Assembly: GCF_026810365.1 (NCBI RefSeq) | Contig: NZ_CP113948.1 | Span: 3,125,001 to 3,189,000, forward strand | Reading direction: 5' to 3' | From: Flavobacterium praedii | GTDB taxonomy: Bacteria; Bacteroidota; Bacteroidia; Flavobacteriales; Flavobacteriaceae | DNA: 64,000 nt | Shown here: positions 35,211 to 38,167 of the stretch, piece by piece | Layout: every line of letters begins with the position of its first letter | Position numbering within the stretch: the first letter of the stretch is position 1 | Position numbers and translations under genes: made by a program | Notes under the pieces: model-generated | What the model saw: the letters and a program-made list of their open reading frames with translations, nothing else | The model's database searches: none | What the model was told of the DNA's origin: nothing

Positions 35211-35441
35211 TTACGTTTCCTTCACCGAAATAATTTTCACAGGACAGGCTTTAGCAGCCAATTCACAACTTTCGACTATAGTGTGGTCAGGTGATTTCAA
35301 GGTATAAAACCCTTTGGCATTTACACTCTTAATCAACACCGATTTTCCGTCTTTTTTAGACATCTGGAATTGAACGGGTGCCATTTCTACACAATAATTG
35401 CACCCAATACATTTGTCTCTTTGCAGTGTTACAATAACCAT
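35211..35441 (-). CDS. Single-cluster 4Fe-4S ferredoxin
   Basis: A 76-residue ferredoxin. Cluster ligands are C11, C14, C17 (CIGCNYC) and C66 in KACPV, giving one 4Fe-4S centre; C59 is extra. Its start codon shares a base with the stop of the U32 protein gene upstream, so the two are translated together. That pairing suggests it supplies electrons to, or supports, the neighbouring Fe-S U32 enzyme, which is inference. It is soluble. Confidence 0.92.
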   Translation of the reverse strand: MVIVTLQRDKCIGCNYCVEMAPVQFQMSKKDGKSVLIKSVNAKGFYTLKSPDHTIVESCELAAKACPVKIISVKET

Positions 35442-36682
35442 TAGGCTTCCACTATTTTATATAATTTGTCGGACATACGAATTCTGAAAGGCAGTTTGAA
35501 AGTACAATCGTCTCCTTTTGTGGCTTTCTCGGCCGTAACGTCATTCACATACATTTCTTCGATGATCATTTCCTGCGCTCCCGTGCTTGGACCCGTCACC
35601 AATATTTTGTCGCCAACTTTGATATCGTAGGCTTCAATTTTGAATTGACCAATGGCTGCTTTTGGAAAAAAATGAGTTCCTTTCCCCACATACACTTTCT
35701 TCTGCGTCGCTACCGATCCCGAAACATCGCTCCACTCTCCCAATTCTTGACCAAGGTAATATCCTGCCCAAAAACCACGATTGTAAACGGTGTTCAATGC
35801 TTCCATCCAAACCGTTACTTTTTCTTTCGAGAAAGTACCTTCGTAATAACTATCAATCGCTTCACGATACGTTTTGATAACCGTTGCCACATATTCTGGA
35901 GCACGTCCGCGGCCTTCAATTTTAAGGACTTGAATACCGGAATCAATTACTTGATCCAGAAAATCCAGTGTACATAAATCTTTTGGCGACATTAGATATT
36001 CGTTGTCCACTTCGATTTCAAAACCAGTTTCCTGATCGATAACCGTGTATTTCTTGCGGCAATTTTGTTTACAAGCGCCTCGGTTTGCAGAGGAATTGTT
36101 GGAATGTAAACTCAAATAACATTTCCCGGAAACTGCCATACACAAAGCACCGTGACCAAAGATTTCAATTTCTACCAAATTCCCGTTAGGCCCTTTGATT
36201 TGTTCTTTTTCGATTTGAGCAGTAATGCTTTTTACTTGTCGTAAACTCAATTCTCGACTCAAAACCATTGTATCGGCAAATAGACTGTAGAACCGAATGG
36301 TTTCAATATTCGTAACGTTCAATTGGGTCGAAATATGTACCTCCATTCCGATTCCCCTTGCCATAGCAATCACAGCTTGATCCGAAGCGATTACAGCCGT
36401 TATATTCGCCTCTTTGGCTTTTGCCAACAATGTCTTTACTACCGATAAATCGTGATCGTAAATGATGGTGTTTAGCGTTAAATAACTTCTAACATTTTTG
36501 GCTTCGCAACGACGGGCGATTTCTGGTAAATCTTCCATCGTGAAATTTACAGTGGCACGAGCGCGCATGTTCAATTGTTCTACACCAAAGTAAACGGAGT
36601 CCGCTCCGTTGTCTAATCCTGCTTGTAACGACTCGAAGTTTCCTGCAGGAGCCATTAATTCTATTTTGTTGTTTGTTGTCAT
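35441..36682 (-). CDS. trhP: U32 family protein, TrhP-like tRNA uridine hydroxylation enzyme
   Basis: A 413-residue U32 protein resembling E. coli TrhP (YegQ), which makes 5-hydroxyuridine at tRNA position 34 by a prephenate-dependent route. The N-terminal barrel contains MAPAGNFESLQAGLDNGADSVYFG. The cysteine set CYLSLHSNNSSANRGACKQNCRKKY plus DLCTLDF fits a 4Fe-4S site of the U32 family. Residues 330-413 are the U32 C-terminal beta domain; the same domain ends the neighbouring TrhO-like protein (51 of 83 positions identical by hand count). The gene directly precedes the ferredoxin. Confidence 0.87.
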   Translation of the reverse strand: MTTNNKIELMAPAGNFESLQAGLDNGADSVYFGVEQLNMRARATVNFTMEDLPEIARRCEAKNVRSYLTLNTIIYDHDLSVVKTLLAKAKEANITAVIASDQAVIAMARGIGMEVHISTQLNVTNIETIRFYSLFADTMVLSRELSLRQVKSITAQIEKEQIKGPNGNLVEIEIFGHGALCMAVSGKCYLSLHSNNSSANRGACKQNCRKKYTVIDQETGFEIEVDNEYLMSPKDLCTLDFLDQVIDSGIQVLKIEGRGRAPEYVATVIKTYREAIDSYYEGTFSKEKVTVWMEALNTVYNRGFWAGYYLGQELGEWSDVSGSVATQKKVYVGKGTHFFPKAAIGQFKIEAYDIKVGDKILVTGPSTGAQEMIIEEMYVNDVTAEKATKGDDCTFKLPFRIRMSDKLYKIVEA

Positions 36683-36696
36683 TTTGTGTGAAATAA

Positions 36697-36792
36697 ACCT
36701 TTGTCAAAGTTTTAAACTTTGACAAAGGTGATGGGTGAATGTAAACCTTTGTCAAAGTTCCAAACTTTGACAAAGGTGAAAGGTGAATGTTT
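36697..36792. repeat. Two tandem 48-bp units, each with a 33-bp palindrome
   Basis: Units 36697-36744 and 36745-36792 are near-identical. Each begins with a 33-bp palindrome: 15-bp arms ACCTTTGTCAAAGTT plus complement around 3 bp. They fill the whole gap between the TrhP and TrhO genes. In RNA each would be a strong hairpin directly upstream of the trhP start, so they may tune its expression after trhO. Confidence 0.8.
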
Positions 36793-36799
36793 GGAAGAA

Positions 36800-38167
36800 C
36801 TATCCAATTATTTTATACAATTTGTCAGACAGCCTAATTCTAAACGGCACTTTGAAAGTACAAGTGTCTCCTGCAACAGCTTTTGCGGAAGCAATTTCAT
36901 TGACAAACATTTCTTCAATAACCAATTGTTGCTCACCAGTTGTTGACCCTTTAATTAGGATTTTGTCGCCAATATTGATTTCGTTTTCTTCAATCAAAAA
37001 CTGGGCAATACTCGGTTTTGGGAAAAAGTGCGTTCCTTTTCCAATGTATTGTTTTTTGATCTTTGGTTCTTTTTTAACAACCGTTTTTGATTTTACTAAA
37101 TCGCTAAGGTTAGGAACATTTGCCAAAAGATCTTGATTGTTCTTGAACGTCAAGACCTCTGATTTTCCTTTTTTGAAGATTTTATTTCCGTTTTTAATCC
37201 CTCTTCGAATGGCTTTTTGTTCTTCTTCCGGAAGATGAATAACCGTTACACATTCGGTTGAGCAGCAGCCTTCCATTTTTTCTTTGCAAGAATCGCACTG
37301 GATGAAAAGCAAATGACAACCTTCGTTGGCGCAATTGGTATGTACGTCACAAGGTTCGCCACATTGATGGCATTGCGAAACGATATCGTCTGTAATTCTT
37401 TCGCCCAAGCGATGGTCAAATACAAAGTTTTTACCAATGAATTTACTTTCCAGTCCTTCGGCTTTAACCTGACGGGTGTATTCAATAATTCCACCTTCGA
37501 GTTGATACACATTTTCAAAACCTTTGTGTTTGAAGTAAGCGCTGGCTTTTTCGCAACGAATTCCGCCCGTGCAATACATCAACAGTTTTTTGTCTTGTTT
37601 GTGTTCGGCTAATTGCTCTTCGATAATTGGTAAGCTTTCGCGAAAGGTATCCACATCAGGTCTGATGGCTTTGGTAAAATGACCAATTTCCGATTCGTAA
37701 TGGTTGCGCATATCAACCAAAATCGTGTTCGGATCTTCGAGTAATTCATTGAATTCCTTTGCTTTTAGGTGAATTCCGATATTGGTGACGTCGAAAGTAT
37801 CATCTTCTAGTCCATCGGCAACAATTTTGTCGCGGACTTTTACGGTGAGTTTCAAAAAGGAATGGTCGTCATGCTCAACGGCAATGTTCAAACGGATTCC
37901 CTTCATGAAATCATATTGTTCAATAGTATTTTTGAATTCGTAAAAATGATCTGCCGGAAGTGATAATTGGGCATTGATTCCTTCATGGGCAACATAAATT
38001 CTTCCTAAAACCTCAAGCGGGTTCCAAGCCAGAAATAATTCGTTACGAAATTGTGTTGGATTTTGAATTTGCGCGTAGGCATAAAAAGACAATGTGAGAC
38101 GTTGCTTTCCGGCATCGTCAATCATAGTGGCTCTTTCCTCTGCGCTTAAAGTGTTGTACAGTTGCAT
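36800..38167 (-). CDS. trhO: TrhO-like rhodanese tRNA uridine hydroxylase with extra C-terminal U32-type domain
   Basis: A 455-residue UPF0176/TrhO protein. E. coli TrhO (YceA, about 350 aa) hydroxylates U34 in tRNA using O2. The N-terminal part (about 1-120) is the TrhO-specific domain, then a rhodanese domain with active cysteine in [12 protein letters not shown], then a cysteine-rich zinc-like region ([19 protein letters not shown] ... [16 protein letters not shown]). After a linker, residues 373-455 duplicate the C-terminal domain of the adjacent U32 protein. That extension is not in the E. coli enzyme. It leads the trhO-trhP-ferredoxin group. Confidence 0.9.

Follow-up and report, generated by a model that had tools for sequence, protein, structure and literature searches.

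Two enzymes make 5-hydroxyuridine at position 34 (ho5U34) of tRNA, TrhO with O2 and TrhP with prephenate. On the reverse strand of a 64,000-nucleotide stretch of the Flavobacterium praedii genome (NZ_CP113948.1, positions 3,125,001 to 3,189,000; henceforth the window), a trhO gene (36800-38167, 455 residues) lies directly upstream of a U32 (TrhP-like) gene (35441-36682, 413 residues), and the two proteins end in the same domain, henceforth the tail (TrhO residues 371-455, 36803-37057; U32 residues 328-413, 35444-35701). How did TrhO come to carry this domain, and what might it do there?

A U32-type domain at the end of TrhO

The two C-termini are homologous. Comparison of the whole proteins by BLASTP gave a single significant match, in which TrhO residues 371-454 and U32 residues 328-411 align without a gap and 53 of 84 residues are identical (E 5e-36). 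A preliminary description of this locus had counted 51 of 83, which is nearly exact, and it was also right that both tails carry the motif SDKLYKI, near the end, and that the tail DNA is similar (176 of 252 positions identical). Third codon positions agree in 44 of 84 codons, and the same codon is used at 31 of the 53 identical residues. A whole-genome search with the U32 protein located the tail at two places only, in TrhO and in the U32 protein.

The tail shares the fold of solved Peptidase_U32_C (PF16325) domains, with 18-20% identity, as well as that of the EF-Tu domain 2 barrel, and structure prediction has it folding independently. Peptidase_U32_C is the C-terminal domain of TrhP, including E. 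coli TrhP, and of other U32 proteins, and has been solved in Geobacillus thermoleovorans (4HE5, 4HE6). U32 proteins usually carry this domain, so what is unusual is to find it on TrhO; the window's version differs further in that its proteins fall below Pfam detection, and only 10 of 47 tails match PF16325 even with E relaxed to 10 (the best being 0.0012). Unlike the domain 2 barrels of EF-Tu and IF2, the tail does not accompany a GTPase domain, none being found by Pfam in either TrhO or the U32 protein; the likeness to EF-Tu is one of fold only. Sixteen columns are invariant in the tails of both hosts (G6, K7, H10, K14, F20, E23, G30, G37, T40, G41, F72, R75, S77, D78, K79, and Y81), which suggests one conserved surface.

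The rest of TrhO is that of a known enzyme. Its core (residues 1-325, 37193-38167) holds the Pfam domains UPF0176_N, rhodanese, and Rhodanese_C, up to residue 306, and in the curated NCBIfam equivalog family NF001133, where the cut-off is 170, the protein reaches 265.6 bits. The active loop, CTGGIRCEK, contains C199 and C205; the cysteine of the rhodanese active loop is important, and C199 is invariant across 35 aligned proteins. The window's TrhO is thought to be an oxygen-dependent enzyme modifying tRNA. The nearest solved TrhO, chain 9j5o (352 residues), matches residues 18-308 and resembles it in the core, but the window's protein continues for about 130 further residues, comprising a linker and the U32_C-like barrel. 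The linker (residues 326-370, 37058-37192) is basic (10 K+R versus 4 D+E), variable in sequence across the alignment, and probably flexible, as the predicted local distance difference test (pLDDT) is below 50 at residues 314-367 in a full-length model of low overall quality (mean pLDDT 61.8).

The neighbouring protein has a U32 barrel (residues 1-327, 35702-36682; PF01136, E 1.5e-68), and its alignment with E. coli TrhP covers most of the protein and takes in four cysteines (181, 188, 204, and 208), which in U32 barrels have a metal-cluster role. It shares the C-terminal barrel with E. coli TrhP as well, but misses the curated NCBIfam TrhP cut-off (195.9 versus 534 bits), leaving its exact activity uncertified. 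We therefore call it TrhP-like, and TrhP in the genome counts below means a U32 protein of this type. A single-sequence search gave no convincing solved relatives of the whole protein. The genome encodes a second U32 protein at 1.37 Mb (619 residues in a 624-residue frame, L001:1279-3138), which has no match to the tail and scores under the cut-offs of all four curated U32-type families that it matched; it may be an rRNA-hydroxylase-like member.

Origin and retention of the TrhO tail

The distribution of the tail was surveyed in 296 genomes of the phylum, the TrhO figures being those among the matches listed. Within the genus the TrhO match spans the tail in all 18 genomes, and it does so in 6 of 6 of a second family, which we take to be Weeksellaceae from the grouping of its sequences with named Chryseobacterium loci. 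In 12 other genomes of the window's own family the match stops at residues 343-369, and no tail-reaching TrhO was seen beyond the genus and the Weeksellaceae among the matches listed from these 296 genomes, other phyla not having been searched. U32 proteins with the C-terminal stretch span the phylum, most of those among the matches listed reaching query residue ~407-413. In a sample of 148 Flavobacteriales genomes (thresholds E 1e-30 for TrhO and 1e-60 for TrhP; some genomes incomplete), TrhO occurs in 110, of which 30 are tailed (11 Flavobacterium and 19 Weeksellaceae), 78 untailed, and two fragments. One untailed match (G403) continues as far as residue 398, though it crosses stop codons. 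The tail is kept in 30 of 30 TrhO genomes of the two groups. To look for a third host protein, a tail profile was run over 149 genomes of the class. It matched 48 times, in 46 genomes: four known TrhO tails (G000, G040, G044, and G016), two U32 tails (G000 and G044), and 42 in open frames of 412-459 residues, the size of U32 proteins, four of which (G056, G118, G249, and G257) coincide with U32 matches, the host being confirmed for these only. No TrhO relatives were found on viral contigs.

In a rooted tree of the TrhO core, with the tail excluded, tailed TrhO forms one clade (support 100/98) that is sister to other Flavobacteriaceae, with Weeksellaceae inside Flavobacterium. The 105 TrhO tails likewise form one clade (Shimodaira-Hasegawa-like approximate likelihood ratio test, SH-aLRT, 100; 91/96 in a smaller, more careful tree). 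In the careful tree they join the U32 tails of Flavobacterium, together with three rows labelled Weeksellaceae (two of that family and one unplaced Flavobacteriales metagenome-assembled genome, MAG), with support 86/82, and this grouping nests in a broader set of U32 tails from Flavobacteriales (96/89). The module was therefore copied between the genes, as the preliminary description had proposed, and the direction was from U32 to TrhO. Judging from these sequences, an ancestor very probably copied the TrhO tail from the neighbouring U32 gene, and one event in the ancestor of the Flavobacterium lineage would be the simplest account of tailed TrhO. A recent copy at the window locus is ruled out since all 18 sampled genus members are tailed and tailed TrhO is one clade. 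A tail native to TrhO and donated to U32 is ruled out as well, because U32 tails occur phylum-wide, E. coli TrhP has U32_C as well, and the sampled TrhO proteins of other families are tail-less.

The two genes were apparently neighbours already. Of the 18 genomes of the order that have both, 17 carry trhO and the TrhP gene within 1.7 kb of each other: 13 of 13 tailed genomes (gaps of 2-1688 bases) and four of five untailed ones, one untailed pair being in reversed order. Since adjacency holds in untailed genomes too, the neighbourhood probably predates the tail.

A few records of the trhO locus stand apart. One TrhO (L084:2641-4017) has a core belonging to the window's clade (92%) but a strongly diverged tail (54%), and is the longest TrhO branch of the tail tree. 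Three MAG records whose titles name Klebsiella pneumoniae or Chitinophaga pinensis (L034, L076, and L079) contain a Flavobacterium-type trhO locus; they are probably mislabelled or mixed bins. In Chryseobacterium sp. E1 (L098:4011-5252) trhO is spread over several frames, a candidate broken gene or the product of sequencing errors. The intergenic stretch of the window that separates the trhO stop from the U32 start (36683-36799, reverse strand) contains a 31-base palindrome twice (36698-36728 and 36746-36776). Allowing at most three mismatches, the genome has this palindrome at 27 places (reversed control, 0), seven of them clustered near 3.313-3.315 Mb; it is a candidate REP-like repeat or terminator. 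No convincing CmoB was found in genome G000 (L187), where PF08003 gave just a partial match, at the cut-off.

Possible function of the tail and its relation to TrhP

Does the tail depend on TrhP? In the order sample, 18 genomes have both genes (~22 expected from the frequencies), 92 have TrhO alone (two of these being fragments), 12 the TrhP-like U32 protein alone, and 26 neither. TrhP is absent from 17 of the 30 genomes with tailed TrhO, all listed as 99-100% complete. The tails in TrhP-less genomes are under purifying selection: in the groups lacking TrhP, the median pairwise ratio of nonsynonymous to synonymous differences (pN/pS) is 0.227, 0.257, and 0.155, compared with 0.166, 0.187, and 0.222 (the last from one pair) where TrhP is present, with 0.43 as the highest single tail pair, and only the direction of these values is safe because synonymous sites are near saturation. 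Core values (0.049-0.142) are below those of the tail in every group. In six of the 17 TrhP-less rows (L010, L011, L012, L014, L016, and L020) the absence of TrhP comes from a tail search that gave one copy, and one of the six is from a genome only 89% complete.

We therefore favour, with moderate confidence in the account as a whole, the following course of events. An ancestor of the Flavobacterium lineage would have had trhO and trhP side by side, and the 3' end of trhP, encoding the EF-Tu domain-2-type barrel, would have been added to the end of trhO by duplication, perhaps when a tandem duplication of trhP was followed by a fusing deletion. Tailed trhO would then have been retained throughout the sampled Flavobacterium and have reached the Weeksellaceae probably by transfer, many of its genomes being without trhP. 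Tethered to the core by the variable, probably flexible, basic linker, the barrel would most likely be an accessory RNA-binding module that keeps tRNA near the rhodanese active site, an action that would need no TrhP. A role in handling tRNA is plausible from the fold and would be the likeliest job of the tail, because U34 is the presumed target of both hosts and translation-factor domains have this fold.

Several observations weigh against this account. The charge of the tail is nearly balanced (12 K+R, 10 D+E), EF-Tu domain-2-type barrels also bind proteins, and neither whole window protein gives a Pfam match to U32_C or EF-Tu domain 2 at E up to 5. The tail alignment has 86 columns and places the donor loosely. 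By the approximately unbiased (AU) test, it does not reject Flavobacterium U32 tails as a clade without the TrhO tails (p 0.524), nor two acquisitions, in which the window's TrhO tail group is joined to Flavobacterium U32 and the remaining TrhO tails stand elsewhere (p 0.378). For the TrhO cores, a clade of Flavobacterium on its own is not rejected either (AU p 0.077). The preliminary description had named, as a finding that would tell against its reading, TrhO and U32 versions deeply separate in the domain tree and common outside this locus: the tailed form is indeed common, as the 18 genus members attest, whereas the best trees do not separate the versions deeply, although with so short a domain a topology that sets the TrhO tails outside the 26 non-outgroup U32 tails is not rejected (AU p 0.064). 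Finally, Weeksellaceae U32 cores, unlike Weeksellaceae TrhO, do not nest in Flavobacterium, so trhO may have moved alone.

We propose more tentatively, and at somewhat less than even confidence, that the barrel at the U32 C-terminus is a module for presenting tRNA that can pass between enzymes, taken by TrhO from the chemically unrelated prephenate-dependent enzyme since both must place the same wobble uridine, so that the fusion would reveal the job of U32_C itself. The tail might instead be an appendage for stability or folding, or a near-neutral passenger of the fusion, with no part in tRNA handling. The variable linker, the excess of tail over core pN/pS in every group, and the fact that other Flavobacteriaceae TrhO proteins manage without a tail all fit such a role, which we nevertheless consider unlikely, given retention in all 30 genomes, pN/pS well below 1, and residues invariant across TrhO and U32 tails.

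A partnership with TrhP fares worse. The preliminary description had suggested that the shared domain puts both routes on one platform, and the twin barrels could in principle join TrhO to TrhP, or both to one platform, and so bring both routes to one tRNA. The invariant columns and the adjacency of the genes in every tailed genome with both are what this would predict, and TrhP accompanies 13 of 30 tailed but five of 78 untailed TrhO genomes (some of the latter incomplete). The excess is small against near kin, however, as four of 12 untailed genomes of the same family have TrhP, and untailed TrhO is mostly adjacent too. Above all, more than half of the tailed genomes have no TrhP and purifying selection on their tails persists, which makes docking improbable. 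Least probable of all is repeated exchange, in which gene conversion between the neighbours or a second acquisition made or keeps the tails alike: window-clade TrhO tails are ~57-71% (one 54%) identical to the window's U32 tail and other TrhO tails ~48-57%, and the shared codons and the two-acquisition topology would fit, but at 93% identity the window's TrhO tail stands closer to another TrhO tail, its nearest, than to the window's U32 tail (63%), the pattern is explained if one clade evolved at a slower rate, and the single clade of 105 TrhO tails disfavours gene conversion.

Tailed TrhO joins a known enzyme and a known domain in a new domain architecture. If the barrel does aid TrhO with tRNA independently of TrhP, the same module would serve two enzymes that differ in chemistry yet are both thought to act on one base, and TrhO would offer a clean route to the function of the U32 C-terminal domain, for which nature already provides the comparison sets: tailed and untailed TrhO, in hosts with and without TrhP. 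The fusion thus hints that a little-understood domain may be a reusable helper for tRNA handling.
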